Position numbers and translations under genes: made by a program. The notes below the pieces were generated by a model. It saw only the letters and a list, made by a program, of their open reading frames with translations, made no database searches and was not told the DNA's origin. Below are positions 1,532 to 22,575 of a DNA stretch of 22,815 nucleotides, piece by piece (positions within the stretch are counted from its first letter, which is position 1; every line of letters begins with the position of its first letter). Origin of the DNA: a virus; the IMG/VR virus record IMGVR_UViG_3300009172_000068, positions 1 through 22,815 of that record. One strand, 5' to 3'.

Positions 1532-1635
1532 TATGTTATCCTCGTTGTTTTCTTCTTGTTAGGAAGCATCCGATCCGAAAATCGATTAGTAACGCTTTTA
1601 CCCTTAATTTTTTTTATGGGTTTTTTCTTAGCCAT
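1531..1635 (-). CDS. Small basic protein between terL and portal
   Basis: This 34-residue reading frame (MAKKKPIKKIKGKSVTNRF, then SDRMLPNKKKTTRIT) is linked at both ends by TAATG overlaps: its ATG overlaps the terL stop and its TAA overlaps the portal ATG. It fills the gap between the two exactly, which argues for a real gene despite its size. It is very rich in Lys and Arg, with no predicted hydrophobic segment, so it could bind nucleic acid or act as a small head/packaging accessory. No family is recognised and the function is inferred only from position. Confidence 0.7.
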   Translation of the reverse strand: MAKKKPIKKIKGKSVTNRFSDRMLPNKKKTTRIT

Positions 1636-3179
1636 TAATAATACTCTCTTGCTCTACGAGGAAACCAATCTTCTGGAATCTCCTCACCTTGTAAACTAAT
1701 AAACCCGCCTTGTCTAAATCTCATTATAGCCATCGTCATACTATCACAATAATCATCATGATCGCCATTAGGAAATGAAGCAACTTCTTCTATAACCTCG
1801 TCAGCAAACTTCTCATCAGGATACCACACTTTTCCCGACTCGAAAATAGGGGACACAATATGCATCCTTGTCGTTTTATCCAAGTTACCCCCTCGCCTTC
1901 TTCCAGGGCTAAATGTGGCAACCGGTAAATTAATTAATCTTAACTCATCCGCTAACGGTTGACCAGAGGCTTTTGCCTCAATCAAAATCATGTCAGGTTC
2001 CCAGTATTCGTTTTGCTCAACAGCGATTTCTTTTAATTCTGGAAAATTCCACCGCCCCTTTAACGCATCAAGTAATATAATATGCTGCTCACCATTTTCC
2101 TTTGGTTCAAATATACCCCACGTTGTAATAGCAGAATAATCAGCTGTCTCTTTTTTACTGTAAGCCGTATCATAAGATTGTACAATATAATCAAGCCTCG
2201 GAATTTTTTCTTTCTCCCATAACTGCCACCACTCACGCTTAATCATAGCGACTTCGTCAGATGTGGGATCTTGTTGCCACTGTGCATTCCACTTGCCGGG
2301 GGACAGTGAAGCCTTGACCTTTAATAATTCATCCTTATTCCAGAACTCATGCCATAATGGTTCCCCCGATGGTAGGATTGCAGGAAACTCGACCACTTCC
2401 CATTGATCTGCCATAGTGTCTTTTGCCTGTGCAGCCAATAAACGACCCGTCAAATCTTTTTTTGACCATCTGGTTTGTACAATTATTATGGTACCCCCCG
2501 GTTGTAATCTCTGACGAGGACCAGAAGTATACCATTCGTAGGCATTATCATAAGCGTTTGCGGACAACGCATCTTGTTCCGAGTGCGGATCATCAATAAT
2601 TAATAAATCAGCACCACGACCTGTCATTGCAGCACCCACCCCTGCAGCGAAATATTCCCCACCGGCACTGGTCTCCCAACGACCTGCAGCCTGGCTATCC
2701 TGTTTCAAGTCCGTGTTTGGGAAAATCTCTGAATAAATGGGATCAGCGATCAAATCACGAACCTTCCTACCAAATCTTACAGCAAGTTCAGTGTTCATGG
2801 TAGCCTGTATTATTTTTAATTTTGGATTACGCCCCAAAAACCAAGAGGGCATTAAATAAGAAGCAAATTCAGACTTAGAATGACGGGGGGGCATGTTTAC
2901 AATAAGTCGTTTCAGTTTACCTTCGGCTATGGCTTCCAATTTTTCAGCTATGATTCCGTGATGCCTACCTTCTATAAACCCTTCATACACATGTTTTGCA
3001 TAGTACATAAATTTATCACGGGCTATCTCACGAGTTTCTAATCTGTTCTTTTGCTCTTCCAGTAACAGGAGTTCTTTAAGAACCTCATCTGGCAATGACT
3101 CTAAATTTTTTGACATGTTGGAACGATAATACATTTGAATGAATTTATCAACCAAACTTATTACACCTATGCCATACAT
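1635..3179 (-). CDS. terL: Terminase large subunit (packaging ATPase/nuclease)
   Basis: This is the motor ATPase and headful/cos nuclease that packages phage DNA through the portal. It has 514 residues, a normal length. The ATPase domain shows a Walker A variant NMPPRHSKSE (95-104), Walker B LLIIDDPHSE (192-201) and the coupling motif IIVQTRWSKKD (232-242). The C-terminal RNase H-like nuclease domain has candidate metal ligands D337 (SYDTAY), E401 (ILIEAK) and the D474/D475/D479 cluster (GDHDDYCDS). The start at 3179 is preceded by a purine run AAGGGGGG ending 5 bases upstream. An internal Met22 (MSKNLESLP) has no clear ribosome site, so the long start is preferred. It heads a minus-strand operon with the 34-aa protein and portal. 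A small terminase subunit is not visible in this window. Confidence 0.95.
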   Translation of the reverse strand: MYGIGVISLVDKFIQMYYRSNMSKNLESLPDEVLKELLLLEEQKNRLETREIARDKFMYYAKHVYEGFIEGRHHGIIAEKLEAIAEGKLKRLIVNMPPRHSKSEFASYLMPSWFLGRNPKLKIIQATMNTELAVRFGRKVRDLIADPIYSEIFPNTDLKQDSQAAGRWETSAGGEYFAAGVGAAMTGRGADLLIIDDPHSEQDALSANAYDNAYEWYTSGPRQRLQPGGTIIIVQTRWSKKDLTGRLLAAQAKDTMADQWEVVEFPAILPSGEPLWHEFWNKDELLKVKASLSPGKWNAQWQQDPTSDEVAMIKREWWQLWEKEKIPRLDYIVQSYDTAYSKKETADYSAITTWGIFEPKENGEQHIILLDALKGRWNFPELKEIAVEQNEYWEPDMILIEAKASGQPLADELRLINLPVATFSPGRRRGGNLDKTTRMHIVSPIFESGKVWYPDEKFADEVIEEVASFPNGDHDDYCDSMTMAIMRFRQGGFISLQGEEIPEDWFPRRAREYY

Positions 3180-3184
3180 GTGTG

Positions 3185-3209
3185 CCCCCCTTATATGTGG
3201 GGTGGGGGG
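3185..3209 (-). promoter_or_regulatory. C6/G6 hairpin overlapping the terL ribosome site
   Basis: Read on the minus strand, CCCCCC (3209-3204) is followed after 13 bases by GGGGGG (3190-3185), and the ATG of terL lies 5 bases further on. The G-run is part of the only Shine-Dalgarno-like sequence. Pairing of the two runs would give a six G-C stem that hides the ribosome site. The sequence is seen directly; a translational control role is inferred. Confidence 0.4.
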
Positions 3210-3267
3210 TCTATAGTAGTTAATAGCTGATATGGAATATCACATAGTAACCCTAGAAACGGTCATA

Positions 3268-3295
3268 GTTAACATGTTAACTATTAACATGTTAA
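3268..3295. promoter_or_regulatory. Paired palindromic operator-like sites (TTAACATGTTAA x2)
   Basis: A perfect 14-base palindrome GTTAACATGTTAAC (3268-3281) is followed by a second core TTAACATGTTAA (3284-3295). The centres are 15 bases apart. The pair lies between the divergent terL and 3389 genes, upstream of the TTGACT promoter element. It is probably a dimeric regulator site; the binding protein is unknown. Confidence 0.6.
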
Positions 3296-3326
3296 GTTAA
3301 TAGTTTTAATTACTTGCAATTACTTG

Positions 3327-3358
3327 TTGACTTCTATTTATATATTGATTAATATAAT
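3327..3358 (+). promoter_or_regulatory. Sigma70-like promoter P1
   Basis: TTGACT (3327-3332) is a good -35 element. A -10 could be TAATAT (3350-3355, 17-base spacer) or TATAAT (3353-3358, 20-base spacer). The nearest operator-like palindrome is centred 37.5 bases upstream of the -35, the same distance as in P3. It drives the 3389-4263 cluster. Confidence 0.6.
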
Positions 3359-3388
3359 TATATTAACAACAAAGAAGAGGAAAACAAA

Positions 3389-3640
3389 ATGTTAAGTAAA
3401 ACTTTTAAGAAGACAATCCAATATAGTTTAGAAGACGTTAACTTTAAGACTATAAGAGAAGAGTATATTGCTATCGAGGCTTGCTCTAAAATGTTTAGCG
3501 ATAGACTTAAACAATTAAAGAAGAGTATTAAAGAAGATATCGCAGAACATCATGAAGACTTTTACTTAGTCGAGTCAGATGTTAAAGAGCATATCGTTAA
3601 GGCTCATACTAGAACATCACTTAAATTAATAGCTAAGTAA
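3389..3640 (+). CDS. Hypothetical protein, first gene after P1
   Basis: This is an 83-residue, lysine- and glutamate-rich, probably mostly helical protein (MLSKTFKKTIQYSLEDVNF at the N-terminus). It has no membrane segment and no recognised domain. The start is well supported by the leader GAAGAGGAAAACAAAATG, which recurs almost unchanged before the genes at 3695, 4573 and 6288. It is the first gene behind the operator/promoter P1, so it may be expressed early. A small host-takeover or regulatory protein is possible but unproven. Confidence 0.6.
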   Translation: MLSKTFKKTIQYSLEDVNFKTIREEYIAIEACSKMFSDRLKQLKKSIKEDIAEHHEDFYLVESDVKEHIVKAHTRTSLKLIAK

Positions 3641-3646
3641 TCAATC

Positions 3647-3671
3647 GAGGTGCTGAGTTATTCAGCACCTC
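3647..3671 (+). other. Intercistronic hairpin without U-tract
   Basis: GAGGTGCTGA (3647-3656) and TCAGCACCTC (3662-3671) form a perfect 10-bp stem with a 5-base loop just after the 3389 gene. There is no T-run behind it, and a ribosome site and ATG follow within about 25 bases. It is more likely an RNA stability, processing or partial-termination element than a full terminator. Confidence 0.6.
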
Positions 3672-3694
3672 ATAACATCGAAGAGGAAAACAAA

Positions 3695-3889
3695 ATGAGT
3701 AATAAAATAGATATAACACCATCATGGGAGACAGCAGGAGAAATTCTTATAATGGCTTTACAAAATAAGAAACTAGATAAAAAAGGTTTTGATAATGTAT
3801 TTGCGAATATAAGAGATATGGCGAGTAAAATGGATTTAGCAAACAGCATAATAAGAAAATTAAAAGAGGAGAAGAATAATGAGAAGTAA
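3695..3889 (+). CDS. Hypothetical small helical protein
   Basis: This 64-residue protein (MSNKIDITPSWETAGEI at the start) is charged and helical with a Lys/Glu-rich tail. The chosen ATG at 3695 follows GAAGAGGAAAACAAA. An in-frame upstream extension to 3650 would run back through the 3647-3671 hairpin and has no ribosome site, so it is rejected. The phrase ITPSWETAGEILIMALQN resembles short phage/plasmid proteins of unknown function. The gene overlaps the next one by 11 bases. Confidence 0.6.
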   Translation: MSNKIDITPSWETAGEILIMALQNKKLDKKGFDNVFANIRDMASKMDLANSIIRKLKEEKNNEK

Positions 3890-4112
3890 ATTAACATATA
3901 AAGAGATCGAGCATCAAGACAAAACTGGTGACAGAATAACGGGAGCAATATGTTTTGTGTTTGGTCTGTTATTCACATATGTTGCATGGACAATTGGAAT
4001 ACCTTTAGTGAATGATCTATATGAATTGTCAGCCGTTGCATTATTTGGATCAATAGGTATAACAGTATCGTTATGTGGTTTAGCTTTAATCTGGAGGAAT
4101 AGGAATGTCTAA
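3879..4112 (+). CDS. Small membrane protein, two TM segments
   Basis: This is a 77-residue protein with a charged N-terminus (MRSKLTYKEIEHQDKTGDR) followed by two hydrophobic stretches, about residues 21-41 (ITGAICFVFGLLFTYVAWTI) and 51-71 (AVALFGSIGITVSLCGLALI). Both termini are predicted to lie on the same side, with Arg/Asn at the C-terminus. It has no lysozyme or canonical holin motif. A membrane role such as superinfection exclusion, or a holin-like function, is possible, but the position among early genes argues against a lysis cassette. It overlaps both neighbours. Confidence 0.6.
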   Translation: MRSKLTYKEIEHQDKTGDRITGAICFVFGLLFTYVAWTIGIPLVNDLYELSAVALFGSIGITVSLCGLALIWRNRNV

Positions 4113-4263
4113 GAAACTAAGAATACAAAAACAATCTAATAACTTTTACAAGTTTGGAAAGTATACAAACCTAACAGAAGAAGAGGCTATAAAAAAACAA
4201 AAGAAATATATCATAATGGTTGATCAATTGTTTACTGGAAAAGAAATAGCTAGAACATACTAA
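4105..4263 (+). CDS. Hypothetical 52-aa basic protein
   Basis: ATG 4105 is preceded by CTGGAGGAATAG, a good ribosome site, and overlaps the upstream stop by 8 bases. The product (MSKKLRIQKQSNNFYKFGK at the N-terminus) is basic and ends FTGKEIARTY. No family is recognised. It is the last gene of the P1 operon: a strong terminator begins about 20 bases after its stop. Confidence 0.5.
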   Translation: MSKKLRIQKQSNNFYKFGKYTNLTEEEAIKKQKKYIIMVDQLFTGKEIARTY

Positions 4264-4278
4264 ACACTTTCCTCGAAG

Positions 4279-4309
4279 AAAAAACCCAGCTTACGAGCTG
4301 GGTTTTTTT
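4279..4309 (+). terminator. Rho-independent terminator of the P1 operon
   Basis: ACCCAGCT (4284-4291), loop TACG, AGCTGGGT (4296-4303), then a T-run to 4309. A-residues before the stem could pair with the T-run, so some bidirectional activity is possible. Confidence 0.92.
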
Positions 4310-4328
4310 GTGCCTGGGTTTTTCATAA

Positions 4329-4353
4329 ACGGTCATGGATCGCAGGACGCAGG
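4329..4353 (+). repeat. Repeat ACGGTCATGGATCGCAGG(A/T)CGCAGG, copy 1
   Basis: This 25-base stretch matches two copies at 5444-5468 and 5506-5530 except for one base (GGACGC instead of GGTCGC). It sits in the 309-base gap between the P1 terminator and the GP88 gene. That gap also holds three palindromic operator-like sites, the palindrome GGTCATGACC (4396-4405) and two more CGGTCAT words. Confidence 0.7.
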
Positions 4354-4373
4354 GAACACATCAATAAAAATTA

Positions 4374-4387
4374 GTTAACATGTTAAC
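4374..4387. promoter_or_regulatory. Operator-like palindrome GTTAACATGTTAAC
   Basis: This is a perfect 14-base palindrome, identical to 3268-3281, and is the first of three copies in the gap before the GP88 gene. Confidence 0.55.
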
Positions 4388-4461
4388 GACCAAACGGTCA
4401 TGACCTTCGGTCATAGCTATTGATACGGTCACGCCATGAAAATTTTGTCAAGAGAAAAGTG

Positions 4462-4475
4462 CTTAACATGTTAAG
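4462..4475. promoter_or_regulatory. Operator-like palindrome CTTAACATGTTAAG
   Basis: This is a perfect 14-base palindrome whose outer bases differ from the GTTAAC version while symmetry is kept. The symmetric change suggests selection for two-fold symmetry. Its centre is 31 bases before that of the next copy. Confidence 0.55.
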
Positions 4476-4492
4476 GATAATTCCTGGAACTA

Positions 4493-4506
4493 GTTAACAT
4501 GTTAAG
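4493..4506. promoter_or_regulatory. Operator-like palindrome at promoter P2
   Basis: GTTAACATGTTAAG is followed by TCAATA, the same right flank as at 6181. Its centre lies 34.5 bases upstream of a TATGAT -10 candidate, so it abuts the -35 region. Confidence 0.55.
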
Positions 4507-4510
4507 TCAA

Positions 4511-4539
4511 TAATTGTTGTGTTTTGTTGTAACTATGAT
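4511..4539 (+). promoter_or_regulatory. Probable promoter P2 for the GP88 gene
   Basis: A -10 candidate TATGAT (4534-4539) is preceded by a T/G-rich stretch with no good -35 (best ATTGTT or TTGTTG). Together with the adjacent palindrome and the leader GAAGAGGAAAAAATT before the ATG, this matches the P1/P3 units and may indicate activator dependence. Confidence 0.45.
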
Positions 4540-4572
4540 ACTGTTAATTAAATCAATGAAGAGGAAAAAATT

Positions 4573-5325
4573 ATGAAATTATTAGATACAAAACAAAGTA
4601 ATACCAAAGTTAGAAAATCTTTAAAATATAGCAATTGGAAAGGTATTAATCCAGAAAATACAGATTTTGCTAGTTTATCATTAATGCCAGATTACAAAAT
4701 TTGTGGAGGTTCTAAAAGTGCAGGATGCATGGATTTGTGCTTAAAAGGATCTGGATTTGCTAAAATTTTTAATTCTGTAAATGTCGCCAGACAAAACAAA
4801 ACAAATTATTTATTAAATGATAAAGAAAATTTTATGAACCAATTAGATAAAGAGTTATCTAACTATGATAAAAAATGTATTAAAAATAATAAAAAAGGTT
4901 TTGTTAGATTAAATACAATTAGTGATTATCCATTTTATAAAACAGGCTTAATGGAAAAAAACAATGATCTAGAATTCATTGATTATACAAAAATAGCTAA
5001 AAGATTATTTGAAAACTTGCCAAGTAATTATCATTTAATATTTTCATTTTCTGGACGTGCTCAATATGAAAACCAAGTTAAACTAGCATTAAAAACAAAC
5101 TTTCCTATATCTGTAGTTTTTTACGATACCTTTCCAGAAACATTTTTAGGACGTGAAGTTATTGACGGCGACAAATCAGACCTTAACAATGCATTATCAT
5201 TTAATAAAATAGTTGGTTTAACATTTAAAAAAATTGATAAAGAAATATTTAATGAATTTAAAGATAATGATTTCATTGTTTACAATCATCAATTAGATTT
5301 TTATAATAAAAAATTCTTAAATTAA
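4573..5325 (+). CDS. GP88-family protein (Gene product 88 domain)
   Basis: This 250-residue protein is recognised as the phage/plasmid GP88 family, whose biochemical function I cannot state. Typical features are an N-terminal N-T-K motif (SNTKVRKSLKYS), a cysteine cluster C44, C52 and C56 in KICGGSKSAGCMDLC that could bind metal or an Fe-S cluster, the segment NSVNVARQNKTNYLL (67-81) and VRLNTISDYPFY (111-122). The C-terminal half is less conserved and asparagine/lysine-rich. The gene stands alone: it has its own operator/promoter region upstream and two terminators downstream. Its codon use looks more AT-rich than that of the replication genes, consistent with a separately acquired cargo (moron-like) gene. 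Confidence 0.8.
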   Translation: MKLLDTKQSNTKVRKSLKYSNWKGINPENTDFASLSLMPDYKICGGSKSAGCMDLCLKGSGFAKIFNSVNVARQNKTNYLLNDKENFMNQLDKELSNYDKKCIKNNKKGFVRLNTISDYPFYKTGLMEKNNDLEFIDYTKIAKRLFENLPSNYHLIFSFSGRAQYENQVKLALKTNFPISVVFYDTFPETFLGREVIDGDKSDLNNALSFNKIVGLTFKKIDKEIFNEFKDNDFIVYNHQLDFYNKKFLN

Positions 5326-5334
5326 TTGACAAAT

Positions 5335-5370
5335 AATCTAGATCATGATTTTATGATCTAGATTTTATTT
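5335..5370 (+). terminator. Terminator 1 after the GP88 gene
   Basis: AATCTAGATCAT (5335-5346) and ATGATCTAGATT (5353-5364) form a perfect 12-bp stem with loop GATTTT, followed by TTATTT. It is AT-rich but well formed. Confidence 0.75.
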
Positions 5371-5394
5371 ACAGGTAATAAAATCTCACTCAAT

Positions 5395-5432
5395 AAATCT
5401 GAAGGTATCCTCCCCACCTTCAGATTTTTTTT
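5395..5432 (+). terminator. Terminator 2 after the GP88 gene
   Basis: AAATCTGAAGGT (5395-5406), a 9-base loop and ACCTTCAGATTT (5416-5427) are followed by a T-run to 5432. This strong second terminator makes a tandem pair, insulating the downstream repeat region. Confidence 0.9.
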
Positions 5433-5442
5433 GTCAAAAATC

Positions 5443-5530
5443 TACGGTCATGGATCGCAGGTCGCAGGTCGCAGGTCGCAGGTCGCAGGATTTTCTCAAA
5501 AACCTACGGTCATGGATCGCAGGTCGCAGG
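5443..5530 (+). repeat. Two TACGGTCATGGATCGCAGG units with a TCGCAGG heptamer array
   Basis: The first unit, TACGGTCATGGATCGCAGG, runs directly into five tandem TCGCAGG heptamers (5455-5489). The second unit (5505-5530) has two. A lone GTCGCAGGAT lies at 5571-5580 inside the end of the nuclease gene. Copy number differences suggest slippage. The role is unknown; there are no CRISPR-like spacers. Confidence 0.8.
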
Positions 5531-5537
5531 ATTGCTG

Positions 5538-5551
5538 CTTAACATGTTAAC
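5538..5551. promoter_or_regulatory. Operator-like palindrome CTTAACATGTTAAC
   Basis: A 12-base TTAACATGTTAA core lies just past the stop of the minus-strand nuclease gene. No promoter is obvious next to it on either strand, so this copy may act structurally or be a relic. Confidence 0.5.
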
Positions 5552-5553
5552 TA

Positions 5554-5946
5554 TTAATTATTAGGGGCAAGTCGCAGGATGTGGTATAATATTTGGTCAA
5601 AATTTTTGCCTTGATATAGGCTTTTTGCCACCAAACCATCAGATGATAATTCCATTGCCCTAAAACCTTCAAATAAATATAGGTCAGAGGTCAAGAGGTG
5701 CTTTACCAAGAAGAAAGATAACCCTTTTGCACGAGAATGCGACAGATTCCAAGCAATTTGAGAAGGTCGGACTAAAACTCGGTTGTTTTTTGTTGTTTTT
5801 AACTCAACAAATACAGATAAACCATTATGACATAAATAAGTGTCGGGTGTTCCACTTGATGCAATGGATTCAATACGTTGATAATGAGTTTTTTTAGGTA
5901 GTTTTAACTTAAAAAGTTTAGCTAAATTTTTCTCTGGTGTTGCCAT
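5554..5946 (-). CDS. PD-(D/E)XK (VRR-NUC/Hjc-like) nuclease
   Basis: This 130-residue protein has the compact nuclease core of the PD-(D/E)XK superfamily. GTPD (32-35) supplies the first acidic ligand, VELK (47-50) supplies E48 and K50, and RPSQIAWN (60-67) supplies the conserved Gln of the following helix. This matches VRR-NUC or Holliday-junction-resolvase-like enzymes, which cut branched DNA. A likely role is resolving replication or recombination intermediates before packaging. The gene is transcribed against both neighbours. No clear Shine-Dalgarno precedes ATG 5946, so it may start near a leaderless transcript or be poorly translated. Its end abuts the repeat/operator zone. Confidence 0.8.
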   Translation of the reverse strand: MATPEKNLAKLFKLKLPKKTHYQRIESIASSGTPDTYLCHNGLSVFVELKTTKNNRVLVRPSQIAWNLSHSRAKGLSFFLVKHLLTSDLYLFEGFRAMELSSDGLVAKSLYQGKNFDQILYHILRLAPNN

Positions 5947-5975
5947 AAGCTACTATAGGGTTTTTCACTACAGGA

Positions 5976-5991
5976 TTCAATAATTATTGAA
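5976..5991. repeat. 16-base palindrome TTCAATAATTATTGAA
   Basis: A perfect AT-only-centre palindrome lies 30 bases upstream of the minus-strand nuclease start. It could be an operator for that gene. It differs from the TTAACATGTTAA family. Confidence 0.4.
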
Positions 5992-6025
5992 AAAACAGTC
6001 TACGATGCTCAGTAATGATTTCAAA

Positions 6026-6110
6026 GTGTGCAAACGTGCATAAAGTGTGCAAAAACTTTGTTGCCTAATAAGGCTTTGAAGTATGTTTGCACGTTTGCAC
6101 GTTTGCACAC
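6026..6110. repeat. Iteron-like inverted repeats, possible origin
   Basis: GTGTGCAAACGTGCA (6026-6040) is exactly repeated in inverse as TGCACGTTTGCACAC (6096-6110). The right arm contains three tandem GTTTGCAC octamers (6085-6108) and the left arm is followed by another GTGTGCAAAA. The element occupies the 341-base gap between the nuclease and the 6288 gene, upstream of promoter P3. Such clusters are typical of origins or multi-site operators. No DnaA box was identified. The rest of the gap (6111-6180) is AT-rich with nothing recognised. Confidence 0.6.
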
Positions 6111-6180
6111 CTATTTACTCAAATATTTTTAAGAAGTAAATCCCATTGGGAAAACTCCTTATATAGGTAAATTCCAGGTA

Positions 6181-6194
6181 GTTAACATGTTAAG
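6181..6194. promoter_or_regulatory. Operator-like palindrome at promoter P3
   Basis: GTTAACATGTTAAG is followed by TCAATAGTTT, nearly the same right flank as the second P1 site. Its centre is 37.5 bases before the -35, the spacing seen at P1. Confidence 0.6.
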
Positions 6195-6224: not shown

Positions 6225-6255
6225 TTTACTTATGATTTATTGTCATTATTATGAT
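6225..6255 (+). promoter_or_regulatory. Promoter P3 of the long small-gene operon
   Basis: TTTACT (6225-6230) is the -35 candidate. The -10 candidates are ATTATG (6248-6253, 17-base spacer) and TATGAT (6250-6255, 19-base spacer). The region aligns with P1, including the shared TTGCAATTA before the -35. It probably drives the unbroken plus-strand gene train from 6288. Confidence 0.55.
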
Positions 6256-6287: not shown

Positions 6288-6611
6288 ATGAAACATATAA
6301 ATAGAGACTACTCAGAGAATCCATATATTGATCCTAAAAATACTCATCCATCAATTACTTTAGATGTAGCAATTCCACACACATGGGAATCTGTATCTTA
6401 TAGCAATGATGTTTGTCCTAGTTTTACAATCAAGAATTTACAGATATTTATTTGTGATGAAGAAACAAAAAAACTAGAACAATTAGATACAAAATATTCA
6501 ATCATGTATCAAGATGATTATGGATGTACTTATGATTCATTATTAAACACAGATGATTGGAGCGAGGTTTTATTATTCGTACAACTTCATAAGTTTGAGG
6601 AGTATGTATAA
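6288..6611 (+). CDS. Hypothetical protein, head of the small-gene operon
   Basis: This 107-residue acidic protein starts MKHINRDYSENPYIDPK. ATG 6288 follows the shared leader GAAGAGGAAAATC. An upstream in-frame TTG at 6273 falls at the edge of that ribosome site and is rejected. Alternating hydrophobic/polar runs (FTIKNLQIFICDEE) suggest beta structure. No family is recognised. Its stop overlaps the next ATG (TAATG). Confidence 0.6.
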   Translation: MKHINRDYSENPYIDPKNTHPSITLDVAIPHTWESVSYSNDVCPSFTIKNLQIFICDEETKKLEQLDTKYSIMYQDDYGCTYDSLLNTDDWSEVLLFVQLHKFEEYV

Positions 6612-11000: not shown

Positions 11001-11417
11001 ATGATTAGAATAAAAAGAACAAGAGAAGAGATCAATGCAAGCATAAAAGATAGGTCTTGTTGTTATCTGTGTGGGAAAAAACTTAGAACAGTTAGTGTAC
11101 TAAGAACTTCTGATAAGGCTTGCTCTTCGTGTAGAACAGAGGGTAAGTCAAAGAAAGCAGGTATAGCAAGAGACCACAAAGAACTAAAGGCTAAAAAGAT
11201 AGAACCTAGTGAGGATGAAATGTCATTTGAGGATGATCCGAGAGCTTTAAAAGAGCAAGACGATCAACGATATATTTCTAAACCGACAGAGCATATATCT
11301 CATGGCACATCTGCATTAGTTGATATGATGTCTCCGAGTAGCTACTATTCTAAGCTTTATGGATTGTCAAAACATGGCACTAGATATTCATATAGAAAAG
11401 GGGGGAAGAAGAAATGA
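11001..11417 (+). CDS. Zinc-ribbon protein of unknown function
   Basis: This 138-residue protein begins MIRIKRTREEINASIKDRSC. Cysteines in CYLCGKK and CSSC (about 20 residues apart) form a zinc ribbon in the first third. The rest is charged and low in predicted structure, ending in a basic tail (YSYRKGGKKK). HNH enzymes share such a ribbon, but no HNH catalytic His-Asn-His is visible, so a nuclease call is not supported. ATG 11001 is preferred over the in-frame 10974 start, which overlaps the previous gene. Stop/start overlap ATGA with the next gene. Confidence 0.6.
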   Translation: MIRIKRTREEINASIKDRSCCYLCGKKLRTVSVLRTSDKACSSCRTEGKSKKAGIARDHKELKAKKIEPSEDEMSFEDDPRALKEQDDQRYISKPTEHISHGTSALVDMMSPSSYYSKLYGLSKHGTRYSYRKGGKKK

Positions 11418-11716
11418 ATTGTATCAAATGTAATAGCACTACGTCTGTTGTGGATAGCAGACCACAGGAATCATCTGCGATAAAAAGAAGACGTAAGTGT
11501 GGTGCATGTGGTTACAGATTTAATACAATAGAACAAGTCTTAACAGAAACGGTCATTGTAAAAGAAGTGGTAAAAGAAACAGTAAGAATAAATAAACCTA
11601 AAATTAAACCTATTGACCCATTCAAAGATGATGCATATTTAGAATCATTGAGCGATGCCGAACTTGAAGCTTTAATAGGAGATGATAATTTTGGAGAAGA
11701 AAATGAAAGTTATTGA
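11414..11716 (+). CDS. NrdR-like zinc-ribbon protein lacking the ATP cone
   Basis: This is a 100-residue protein. The first 45 residues (MNCIKCNSTTSVVDSR through RRRKCGACGYRFNTIEQ) closely match the zinc-ribbon domain of NrdR, the repressor of ribonucleotide reductase genes: CxxC, VxDSR, RRRxCxxCxxRFxTxE. The following ATP-cone domain of NrdR (about 100 residues) is missing and replaced by a Val/Lys/Glu-rich stretch and an acidic tail. Known NrdR reads nucleotide levels through the ATP cone, so this form could bind DNA only, perhaps as a decoy or dominant regulator of host nrd genes. That function is inferred. Confidence 0.75.
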   Translation: MNCIKCNSTTSVVDSRPQESSAIKRRRKCGACGYRFNTIEQVLTETVIVKEVVKETVRINKPKIKPIDPFKDDAYLESLSDAELEALIGDDNFGEENESY

Positions 11717-12070: not shown

Positions 12071-12300
12071 GTGACAATGTTATACAATTAGATAAAATAA
12101 AGAGAACAAAAGACCCTGTTAAAAATGTTTGCGAGATGGCTGCGAAAGAATTTAACGATTTAGTTATCATAGGTGAGGATAAAAATGGTAAGATTCAAAT
12201 GATTACAACTATTGCAGAACCCGCTGATTTAATATGGTTTTTAAAAGTTTGTGAGCATGGAATATTATCAAGAGGAGTGGAGGAGGAAGAAGATGAGTGA
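12067..12300 (+). CDS. Conserved phage protein, unknown function
   Basis: ATG 12067 (MSDNVIQLDKIKRTKDPVKN) follows AAGGAG; the longer in-frame start at 12013 lies inside the previous gene. The block LVIIGEDKNGKIQMITTIAE then DLIWFLKVCEHGIL is familiar from short phage proteins of unknown role. The acidic tail is EEEEDE. It overlaps the next gene by 8 bases. Confidence 0.6.
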   Translation: MSDNVIQLDKIKRTKDPVKNVCEMAAKEFNDLVIIGEDKNGKIQMITTIAEPADLIWFLKVCEHGILSRGVEEEEDE

Positions 12301-12502
12301 AGATATACAATTAGACGCAACTGCCTGTTTAGAAGAAGTAGTCTCTTACATAAGAGGAGACACTAACCTTAGAGAAGCTACGTCAGCTTTATATAGATTA
12401 GGAATGGATAAGAAAAGTGCAGGTAAAGTTCTCAGAGATACACCTAGAAGTAACGTCTACGACTTTCAGACAAAATCCCAACTTGGCTCTGATTCAAGCT
12501 GA
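12293..12502 (+). CDS. Hypothetical 69-aa protein
   Basis: ATG 12293 (MSEDIQLDATACLEEVVSYI) follows GAGGAGGAAGAAG. The product is helical and acidic at the N-terminus and basic in the middle (LGMDKKSAGKVLRDTPRS). No family is recognised. The in-frame upstream extension to 12251 is rejected because the ribosome site favours 12293. Confidence 0.55.
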   Translation: MSEDIQLDATACLEEVVSYIRGDTNLREATSALYRLGMDKKSAGKVLRDTPRSNVYDFQTKSQLGSDSS

Positions 12503-14634: not shown

Positions 14635-14880
14635 ATGGAGTTCAATAAAGGAGAGTTACAAGTTTTAGAAAAAGCCGTTGGGTATTTCTCTGATCTTGTT
14701 TTAACTGAGGGTCGAGATTTTCATAGCCCTGATGAATTGGTAAATCTGTATAAATTAAAAGAGATAATGGAAAGAAAAGGTGGACCAAATATGCACGGTA
14801 ATAATGAAGTAAAACATTTATATGACGCAATGGAAAGTGAAAGGAAAATCAATGCCAAGAACATGGAAAGAAAAATATAA
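14635..14880 (+). CDS. Hypothetical 81-aa protein
   Basis: ATG 14635 (MEFNKGELQVLEKAVGYFSD) follows ACAAGGAGAAAATA. The in-frame 14548 start lies across the divergent gap and is rejected. The product is mostly helical with a charged C-terminus and no recognised family. It overlaps the RHH gene by 29 bases, suggesting coupled expression with it. Confidence 0.6.
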   Translation: MEFNKGELQVLEKAVGYFSDLVLTEGRDFHSPDELVNLYKLKEIMERKGGPNMHGNNEVKHLYDAMESERKINAKNMERKI

Positions 14881-15004
14881 GACGGTTGCAATACCAATGG
14901 AGAACTATGAAATGCTATCAGAAATAGCGGAAGATGAAGGAAGAAGTTTAACAAGGCAAATCTCTTGGTTAATAAAAAAAGCATTTGAGAAAAAAACTTC
15001 TTGA
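14852..15004 (+). CDS. Ribbon-helix-helix (CopG/Arc-like) DNA-binding protein
   Basis: This 50-residue protein, MPRTWKEKYKTVAIPMENYE at the start, then SEIAEDEGRSLTRQISWLIK, has the RHH layout: a short strand with alternating residues (KTVAIP), a helix, the GRSLTRQI turn and a second helix. RHH proteins act as dimers on palindromes or tandem half-sites, commonly as repressors. It is one of only two clear transcription-factor candidates in the window, so it may bind the TTAACATGTTAA sites; this is inference. The ribosome site AAAGGAAAATCA precedes ATG 14852. A promoter starts right at its stop. Confidence 0.75.
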   Translation: MPRTWKEKYKTVAIPMENYEMLSEIAEDEGRSLTRQISWLIKKAFEKKTS

Positions 15005-19892: not shown

Positions 19893-21786
19893 TGATCAGT
19901 ATCACTTTTTAGATCAAGACATAAAAGATATGTCTTGGGGCAATGTAGATTCTGATTGGTCGCCACCAAACACTTTTCCAGACCTTACAAAAGCAACTAG
20001 AATTGCAGTTGACTTAGAAACAAAAGATCCAAACTTAATTAAATTAGGACCTGGGTGGTGCAGGAACGATGGACATATAATAGGTATTGCCGTGGCCGCA
20101 GGGGATTTTCAAGGTTATTATCCTATACGTCATGCGGCAGGTAATATGGATAAAAGAATTATCTTTAATTGGTTTAAAAAACAAATGGCAACACCTCACA
20201 TACCTAAAGTGTTTCATAATGCTATGTATGATCTTGGTTGGTTAAGAGCCGAAGGAATAGAAGTACAAGGTAAGATAATAGATACCATGATTGCTGCACC
20301 TTTAATTGATGAGAACAGGAGATTCTATAATCTTAATTCATTAGCTAGAGATTATTTAAAAGAATCTAAAAGTGAAAAAGCATTAAGAGCTGCAGCAAAT
20401 GAGTTTGGTGTTGATCCAAAAGCAGAGATGTATAAATTACCAGCTAGATACGTTGGTGCTTATGCAGAACAAGATGCAGCTGTGACATTACGACTGTACG
20501 ATCATCTAAGTGTTTTGTTAGATAAAGAAGAATGCTCTTCTATTTTTGAGTTGGAGACTGATTTGCTTCCTGTCATATTTGAAATGAAAACAAAAGGTGT
20601 TCGAGTTGATGTTGACAAGGCTGAACAAGTTAAAAAGAAAATGGCACGAGAAGAAAAATTACTTATACAAGAGATAGTCAAGGAAACAGGTGTCACGGTT
20701 GAACCTTGGGTCGCTACATCTATAGCAAAGGTCTTTGATTCTGTGGGACTTTCTTATTCTCGTACAGAAAAGTCCGGGGCACCCATGTTTACAAAACAAT
20801 TTCTCTCTAATAACACGCATCCAATTGCACATAAGATTGCAAAGATAAGAGAACTTAACAAAGCAAACACGACCTTTGTTGAAACTATTCTTAATCATGC
20901 TCATAATGGTAGAATTCATTGTGACTTTCATCCCTTGAGAACTGACGATGGTGGTACTGTAACAGGTCGATTTAGTTCTAGCAATCCTAATCTGCAGCAA
21001 ATTCCTGCTAGAGATCCTGATATTAAAAAAGCAATCAGAGGATTATTCATTCCAGAAGAAGGAACCAAATGGGGGTCATTTGACTATGCTTCACAAGAAC
21101 CTAGATGGTTAGCTCATTACTGTGCAAATTCAACAGGGGATTTACGACATCCATTAATTGATGATGTGGTTAAAATGTATAAAGAAGGTAAAGCCGACTT
21201 TCATCAAATGGTAGCTGACATGGCAGATATAAACAGGAAAGAAGCTAAGACAGTTAATCTTGGAATTATGTATGGCATGGGTAAAAAGAAATTAGCTGAC
21301 ACATTATCTATTACAGAAGAAGAAGCGGTATCTTTATTAGAAAAATATAATGAGAAGGTTCCGTTTGTTAGAGACTTAGCAACAAGAGTTTCTGCCTTTG
21401 CACAGAATAAAGGAATGATAAGAACACAGCTTGGTAGAAAATGTAGATTTGATATGTGGGAGCCAAAGGGATTTGGTTACAAAAAAGCATTGCCAATGAA
21501 TGAAGCTCTAAAGGAATACACAAATATAAAGAGAGCTTTTACATACAAAGCTTTGAATCGATTGATTCAAGGATCAAGTGCTGATCAAACTAAAAAGGCA
21601 ATGGTCGATTGTCATGCGGCAGGTCTTACACCGACATTGACGGTGCACGATGAATTATGTTTTAGTATAGAAAATCAAGAGCAATCAGACACTATAGTAA
21701 ATATAATGTCTAACTGCATTAAAGATTTAAACGTACCTTTTGAAGTCGATGCAGAACTAGGCGACAATTGGGGCGAGGTAGGTTAA
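19882..21786 (+). CDS. polA: Family A DNA polymerase with proofreading domain
   Basis: This 634-residue replicase has a 3'-5' exonuclease domain with D44/E46 (VDLET), N113/D117 (FHNAMYDL) and Y194/D198 (YAEQD), and a polymerase domain. The latter includes TGRFSSSNPNLQQIP (361-375), motif A DYASQEPR (401-408), motif B RKEAKTVNLGIMYG (452-465) and motif C VHDEL (588-592). There is no 5'-3' exonuclease domain, as usual for phage enzymes. Residue Leu460 aligns with E. coli Phe762. No DnaJ-type insertion was seen. It overlaps the upstream stop by 11 bases and couples to the next gene by TAATG. Confidence 0.96.
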   Translation: MTSNDQYHFLDQDIKDMSWGNVDSDWSPPNTFPDLTKATRIAVDLETKDPNLIKLGPGWCRNDGHIIGIAVAAGDFQGYYPIRHAAGNMDKRIIFNWFKKQMATPHIPKVFHNAMYDLGWLRAEGIEVQGKIIDTMIAAPLIDENRRFYNLNSLARDYLKESKSEKALRAAANEFGVDPKAEMYKLPARYVGAYAEQDAAVTLRLYDHLSVLLDKEECSSIFELETDLLPVIFEMKTKGVRVDVDKAEQVKKKMAREEKLLIQEIVKETGVTVEPWVATSIAKVFDSVGLSYSRTEKSGAPMFTKQFLSNNTHPIAHKIAKIRELNKANTTFVETILNHAHNGRIHCDFHPLRTDDGGTVTGRFSSSNPNLQQIPARDPDIKKAIRGLFIPEEGTKWGSFDYASQEPRWLAHYCANSTGDLRHPLIDDVVKMYKEGKADFHQMVADMADINRKEAKTVNLGIMYGMGKKKLADTLSITEEEAVSLLEKYNEKVPFVRDLATRVSAFAQNKGMIRTQLGRKCRFDMWEPKGFGYKKALPMNEALKEYTNIKRAFTYKALNRLIQGSSADQTKKAMVDCHAAGLTPTLTVHDELCFSIENQEQSDTIVNIMSNCIKDLNVPFEVDAELGDNWGEVG

Positions 21787-21947
21787 TGGGTAAAAAAGCA
21801 GAAGAAAAAACTGAACGTAATGCAGAAATATATTATAGACGTATGGCAGGGGAAAGACTCAAAGACTTGTGTAAGCAGTATGATCTATCCCGTAGCCGTG
21901 TATATAAAATAGTGATGCAGTATTCTAAAAAACTGTGCCTAAGTTGA
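21786..21947 (+). CDS. Mini helix-turn-helix protein (Mor-like)
   Basis: This 53-residue protein, MGKKAEEKTERNAEIYYRRM at the start, then GERLKDLCKQYDLSRSRVYK, contains a classic HTH: a helix ending in LKDLCKQY, turn D-L-S, and recognition helix RSRVYKIV. It resembles the C-terminal HTH of Mor/C middle-promoter activators. It follows PolA by TAATG, so it is expressed late in the early operon, a good position for a switch to late genes. Its stop abuts the stop of the opposing DUF1127 gene with no terminator between them. Confidence 0.65.
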   Translation: MGKKAEEKTERNAEIYYRRMAGERLKDLCKQYDLSRSRVYKIVMQYSKKLCLS

Positions 21948-22148
21948 TTAGTAACCAGCTTTTACATATTGATTATGTAATTCTGTCAACGGATCTTCTT
22001 CTGGCTTTTCATTTTTAAAAACTTCATACGCATGTGATTTTATATTAGACCTATTTAGTCCTATATCTTTCAATGTTGCATCGTCTAAGCTGTTTAAAGC
22101 TGTTACTGTTCTTCCTATCTTAAAGTTGTAAAACCATTTTTCAAACAT
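21948..22148 (-). CDS. DUF1127-domain protein
   Basis: This 66-residue protein is MFEKWFYNFKIGRTVTALNS at the start, then LDDATLKDIGLNRSNIKSHA. It shows the DUF1127 hallmark (LxxLDDxxLKDIGLxRSxI), a small domain common in Alphaproteobacteria where some members act in RNA/sRNA maturation and nutrient control. The C-terminal tail is acidic. GGAG lies 8 bases before ATG. It is likely host-derived cargo. It sits convergently against the HTH gene and is separated by 268 bases from DUF1289, suggesting its own promoter. Confidence 0.85.
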   Translation of the reverse strand: MFEKWFYNFKIGRTVTALNSLDDATLKDIGLNRSNIKSHAYEVFKNEKPEEDPLTELHNQYVKAGY

Positions 22149-22416: not shown

Positions 22417-22433
22417 TTAACTCTGCATTATTT
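22365..22433 (-). repeat. 18-base direct repeat around the DUF1289 stop
   Basis: CTTAACTCTGCATTATTT (plus strand) occurs at 22365-22382 and 22416-22433, 51 bases apart. The right copy is the end of the DUF1289 gene. The left copy is preceded, on minus, by GGGGGGAGG. It could come from a tandem duplication or from recombination. Confidence 0.75.
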
Positions 22434-22575
22434 TTTTACGTTCTTCATCAGTCATTTTAGACCAGTTAGAAATTTGTTCTAAAGTTCTTTGGCAACCAAT
22501 ACATATATTATTTTTTATTTTGCACACGTTTAGGCACGGGCTTGCAATAGGCTGTAATTTTTTTCGTCTTGGCAT
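22417..22575 (-). CDS. DUF1289-family protein (52 aa)
   Basis: Minus-strand reading frame ATG 22575 to TAA 22417 encodes MPRRKKLQPIASPCLNVCKI, then KNNICIGCQRTLEQISNWSK and MTDEERKKIMQS. The pattern SPCxxVCxxxxxxCxGCxRTLxxIxxWxxMxxxER is diagnostic of DUF1289, a small four-cysteine protein common in Proteobacteria and presumed to bind metal. The first 68 bases overlap the end of the upstream gene in another frame, which is why it is easily missed. GGGG lies shortly before the ATG. The function is unknown. Confidence 0.88.
   Translation of the reverse strand: MPRRKKLQPIASPCLNVCKIKNNICIGCQRTLEQISNWSKMTDEERKKIMQS

Follow-up and report, generated by a model that had tools for sequence, protein, structure and literature searches.

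Why should one 12-bp palindrome recur seven times at a single junction of a phage genome? The window analysed here, 22,815 bases long, is the whole of IMG/VR record IMGVR_UViG_3300009172_000068. The original prediction of seven copies of TTAACATGTTAA within 3 kb proved correct. All seven are exact (Table 1), no eighth was found elsewhere in the window, and 0.011 copies are expected under a third-order Markov model of the window. TTAACATGTTAA is the sole 12-bp palindrome present more than once in the window. As had been claimed, every copy lies outside likely genes; the one at 5539–5550 ends just before the stop codon of a leftward nuclease gene (5554–5946). The flanking bases were said to change symmetrically in several copies, which holds for three of the seven (G..C at 3269 and 4375, C..G at 4463) and not for the other four (A..G, G..G, C..C and G..G). 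The regulator gene was described as not evident beside the sites, and it is indeed not adjacent.

Table 1. Positions of the palindromes, early promoters and candidate regulator genes in the window
Feature	Position	Strand	Remarks
Palindrome copy 1	3269–3280		G..C flanks; divergent gap between leftward terL and first early gene
Palindrome copy 2	3284–3295	+	Promoter-proximal site of early promoter P1
Palindrome copy 3	4375–4386		Between intrinsic terminator and promoter P2
Palindrome copy 4	4463–4474		Upstream of P2
Palindrome copy 5	4494–4505	+	P2 promoter-proximal site, upstream of GP88-like gene 4573–5325
Palindrome copy 6	5539–5550		Between terminator of GP88-like gene and 3' end of leftward nuclease gene
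Palindrome copy 7	6182–6193	+	Promoter-proximal site of early promoter P3
Early promoter P1	3327–3355	+	-35 TTGACT 3327–3332, 17-bp spacer, -10 TAATAT 3350–3355
Early promoter P3	6225–6252	+	-35 TTTACT 6225–6230, 16-bp spacer, -10 TATTAT 6247–6252
Terminase large subunit (terL)	1635–3179	-	Left border of palindrome cluster
69-aa three-helix protein	12293–12502	+	Candidate regulator only; strongly conserved KKSAxKVLRxTxRxN
Arc/MetJ-type ribbon-helix-helix (RHH) protein	14852–15004	+	Candidate regulator; unsupported as common factor
Mor-like HTH protein	21786–21947	+	Confined to the window's strain group

Terminase and DNA polymerase put the phage close to the Pelagibacter podoviruses HTVC023P and HTVC027P, phage 023Pt_psg01 and DSL-LC04, with 54–63% identity in the terminase and 48–52% in the DNA polymerase. 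Late genes are transcribed leftward from terL, early and replication genes are transcribed rightward, and the palindromes lie at the point of divergence. Other elements share this region. Upstream of terL, a G-rich tract is followed by AGTAACCC(C) (3186–3215 and 3246–3254); the pair is kept in nearly all relatives (L019, L054, L071, L075 and L107 among them), with palindromes present or absent, and is a candidate packaging or terminal site. A second dispersed repeat family, ACGGTCATGGATCGCAGG, with ACGGTCAT at 3259, 4329, 4394, 5444 and 5506 and CGCAGG repeats at 4341–5530, is found on one strand only, interleaved with the TTAACATGTTAA palindromes, and parts of it are also present in palindrome-free relatives. 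Elsewhere in the window, cellular-type DUF1127 and DUF1289 genes stand at the end of the early region (21948–22148 and 22417–22575), and 11414–11716 encodes a protein resembling, by eye, the NrdR zinc ribbon that is found, among close relatives, in the window's strain group only.

The palindrome is conserved in part of the family. TTAACATGTTAA is present in 40 of 80 close terminase relatives, and contigs that span the terL/early-gene junction usually have 6–10 copies within the same 3–4 kb. The sequence is held very strictly, since the 80 relatives contain 186 exact copies versus 35 with one mismatch. The copies are kept upstream of promoters in relatives and are not scattered at random: they form a cluster of about 3 kb, and none was found, even with one mismatch allowed, in the 32-kb contig G431, the rightward continuation of the genome. 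Some relatives at similar terminase identity (88–91%) are entirely without TTAACATGTTAA; in several of them the corresponding gap contains palindromes of another sequence, for example AACCAGCTGGAAA. In the early module the palindrome-rich phages form one group. TTAACATGTTAA is absent from two named relatives, the Pelagibacter phage HTVC008M and C48C1, and was not found in 40-kb stretches of HTVC023P and HTVC027P.

In the corresponding gaps, six palindrome-free relatives (L024, L039, L042, L054, L055 and L098) have CCAGCTGG in 4–7 copies, frequently as AACCAGCTGGAAA, a pattern that would fit replacement of one box by another. A ATGATTATCATT-type palindrome, whose core is like that of a Fur box, adjoins a AGTAACCCC element upstream of terL in L038 and L044, with variants in L019 and L024; all four are palindrome-free. 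Contigs L281, L290 and L292 were judged chance pattern matches. Many matches to GTTAACATGTTAAC in isolate prophages (ggcaGTTAACATGTTAACtgcc) were set aside, as they sit in the same conserved, hairpin-like and more GC-rich setting. ggcaGTTAACATGTTAACtgcc forms a near-perfect inverted repeat in L296, L298 and about 35 similar isolate prophage loci; it resembles a hairpin and seems unconnected with the marine promoters.

The position of the palindromes relative to promoters was then considered. Downstream of the palindrome nearest a gene start, nnnAwAGTT and then a sigma70-like promoter are often found. P1 and P3 each begin 31 bp after a palindrome (copies 2 and 7, respectively) and read into genes 3389–3640 and 6288–6611. 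In the window's family the nearest palindrome mostly ends 10–11, 20–21, 30–31, 41 or 51 bp before the -35. These offsets put the palindrome on one helix face relative to the -35. Family promoters were selected with a weight matrix that took no account of the palindrome, and similar sequences were collapsed. The -35 offsets of the 15–17 non-redundant promoters share a helical phase (R 0.66–0.70, P ~4e-4 when compared with random shifts of at most 5 bp). An initial Rayleigh test limited to exact sites gave a weak result (P 0.06), and the P value improved to 4e-4 once one-mismatch sites nearer the gene were allowed, so the phasing claim was rested on an independent scan of viral contigs.

The phasing is kept in deep lineages that have one site each (offset 21 in L102 and 10 in L286) and at the one-mismatch site of L101 (offset 11). 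In the distant terminase relatives L310, L323 and L319 the palindrome stands, by eye, at 41–42 bp. Two promoters count against an activator: a strong family promoter in L201 is out of phase (offset 26), and P2 of the window, with a weak -35 and TATGAT (4534–4539) as its likeliest -10, could not be assigned a helical phase. In some podoviruses 10-bp repeat units (TTGYAATTAR) lie between the box and the -35, and slippage of these repeats could produce part of the phasing. Some copies are not promoter-proximal: they are found in the gap from a stop codon to a terminator, or overlapping a start codon.

For the independent scan, 2.9 million viral contigs were searched for the palindrome, a free gap of 8–38 bp, TKKACW, 16–18 bp and TATAAT. 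At least 120 stretches matched, and 91 distinct promoters are present among the matches listed. In these 91, the box stands 31 bp from the -35 in 63 and 11 bp in 24, with 4 at other offsets. Since the offset was left free in the scan, the two peaks are a result and not an input. The binomial probability for the 11- and 31-bp offsets among the matches listed is ~1e-97, a value that ignores relatedness. The -35/-10 spacer is 17 bp in 90/91 of the promoters listed, and the offset rule holds in about 17 of the 21 families of first downstream genes among the same matches. Many of the contigs come from T4-like myoviruses, to which the window phage is not related, and at least 49 of the 120 listed have T4-type core or replication genes. 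By DNA polymerase, the closest cultured relative of one such contig, L366, is the Kyanoviridae phage C48C1 (50% identity). The only window gene widely common to the contigs listed is the DUF1289 gene, found in at least 31 of the 120.

The original prediction of a dimeric regulator is well supported by the exact palindrome, its conservation at the junction in relatives and its helical phasing to promoters, and TTAACATGTTAA is very probably the landing site of a protein that switches the downstream promoters. The strict palindrome, its position on one helix face and two preferred positions 20 bp apart suggest a class-I activator site, as does placement upstream of the -35, without overlap, at 11 or 31 bp in 87/91 promoters listed. 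TTAACATGTTAA is, in our view, probably bound by a dimeric transcription factor, which would activate sigma70-type early promoters with class-I geometry. Such a factor would sit upstream of RNA polymerase on the same DNA face, with palindrome centres about 52, 62, 72, 82 or 92 bp upstream of the inferred start; the two main centres, near -52 and -72, assume that transcription starts 7 nt after the -10. It would contact polymerase and activate the early promoters. We infer protein binding, activation rather than repression, and polymerase contact alike from the arrangement of the DNA. Copies that stand ahead of terminators or on start codons allow for repression as well, alone or alongside activation.

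The palindromes may instead be repressor operators, to which an early or middle phage protein binds and shuts the early promoters, like Arc or phi29 p4. A repressor or roadblock explains the copies away from promoters better than an activator does, copies are present in nearly all early intergenic gaps, and the genome encodes an Arc-type RHH protein. However, the promoter-proximal copies do not overlap the -35 or -10, and phasing to promoters over 40 bp is unusual for steric repression, leaving repressor operators possible but unlikely. Clustering at the divergent late/early junction would also suit replication-origin or partition sites that are not promoter elements. This is highly improbable given sites phased to promoters, single copies before many different genes in the myoviruses, and no partition ATPase recognised beside the sites. 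A chance or repeat-driven artefact without function, for which the AT-rich genome (35% GC) might speak, deserves almost no credence against the excess over the expected count, near-perfect conservation in relatives and the same spacing in an independent data set.

Which protein would bind the box is a separate matter. The RHH and HTH genes had been put forward as running the circuit of this phage, and co-occurrence does not support either. The HTH gene is excluded as a required regulator because it is missing from G002, which has seven sites and extends past polA. The RHH gene is retained by 12/17 relatives without the palindrome. It could still encode the factor, activator or repressor, for this phage family, as every palindrome-rich contig covering the locus has the RHH strand KY[KR]TVAIP while the strand of palindrome-free relatives is [FWY][KR][SNT]VA[VLI]. 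This correlation is not independent because the whole early module diverges together. Moreover L287, a single-site lineage with the same box, has YKSIAV, and no palindrome lies near the RHH gene itself. As expected of an RHH operator, the cognate gene accompanies the box in the window's family, but no homologue was found in the 120 box-bearing contigs listed, which are fragments and many of them myoviruses. The RHH protein is thus a doubtful candidate. Other RHH groups yielded no strong palindrome of their own.

The 69-aa protein was readily found in 7/7 palindrome-rich relatives covering its locus and in 0/17 without the palindrome. It was rejected as a perfectly associated regulator, as distant versions turned up in palindrome-free phages when a profile was used for the search. 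Its model gave no significant PDB match, and no homologue was found in the 120 box-bearing contigs listed, which are fragments. Both this gene and the RHH gene are conserved members of the early module, and their sequences, like their neighbourhood, differ between palindrome-rich and palindrome-free phages. No Crp/Fnr protein was present among the window proteins scanned.

Because unrelated phage groups have the same box and no DNA-binding gene in common was found, a factor from a common host is suggested. This points to a factor supplied by the shared host as the simplest account, though a phage gene could also encode it. The box-plus-promoter arrangement was found in 0 of about 870 bacterial genomes from four orders, one of which has genomes of 0.7–1.5 Mb, and the phage's host may lie outside these orders. 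A partly overlapping set of 398 Pseudomonadota genomes showed no enrichment of TTAACATGTTAA, with at most 2 bare copies; the host may lie outside this set as well. The host-factor version is weakened because no bacterial chromosome searched has the box and promoter. A broader proposal is about as likely as not: one undescribed activator, either that of a common marine host or the product of a phage gene yet unrecognised, would recognise TTAACATGTTAA ahead of early promoters in no fewer than two unrelated tailed-phage groups. Such promoters would form a class of their own, whose two main positions differ by exactly two turns of the helix.

Several known systems resemble this arrangement in part. 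The phi29 p4 protein is a small phage regulator that acts around -82, in phase with polymerase, contacts the alpha subunit, and both activates and represses. Its sites differ in sequence from TTAACATGTTAA, and no p4 homologue was seen in the window phage. The stoperators of mycobacteriophage L5 are asymmetric, genome-wide and orientated with transcription. Like them, TTAACATGTTAA occurs as numerous identical short sites within narrow intergenic gaps; unlike them, it is palindromic and confined to one junction of about 3 kb. PrfA of Listeria acts at about -41. The PrfA box, of the Crp/Fnr family (TTAACANNTGTTAA, PMC5359189), is also a palindromic activator site upstream of a promoter, and its half-sites, TTAACA and TGTTAA, are identical to those of TTAACATGTTAA. 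In TTAACATGTTAA, however, the half-sites adjoin directly, without the two central bases of the PrfA box, so that their phasing differs. No exact copy has a central spacer, and one-base spacer variants (TTAACATTGTTAA) were seen only a few times. Because the two central bases are absent, membership of the PrfA or Crp/Fnr boxes is not claimed.

The nearest precedents are the NtcA and Pho boxes of cyanophages, where phage genes come under a host activator through several sites upstream of promoters (PMC3037559, PMC10976474). T4-like cyanophages were reported to have 1–16 NtcA sites per genome (PMC3037559), and binding of host PhoB to phage promoters was shown by gel shift (PMC10976474). The sequences of these boxes (GTA-N8-TAC and PyTTAAPyPyT/A) are unlike TTAACATGTTAA, and their regulators are known, whereas here a strict 12-bp palindrome stands 11 or 31 bp before the -35 and the factor is only predicted. 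The TTAACATGTTAA box also occurs in a podovirus-like group, unlike the NtcA and Pho boxes of T4-like cyanophages. No report of TTAACATGTTAA in this promoter role was found in the literature searched.

The element is best read as a predicted, previously undescribed activator box common to phage early promoters. Early transcription is unmapped in most uncultured marine phages, and a strict box with two main positions offers a signature for candidate early promoters in metagenomic contigs. This signature suggests which genes act first, and it may mark phages with a common host. It also raises a testable question, namely on which protein unrelated marine phages rely to start infection. If that protein is a host factor, the success of these phages would hinge on its activity, a dependence already argued in the case of NtcA and demonstrated in that of PhoB in cyanophages.
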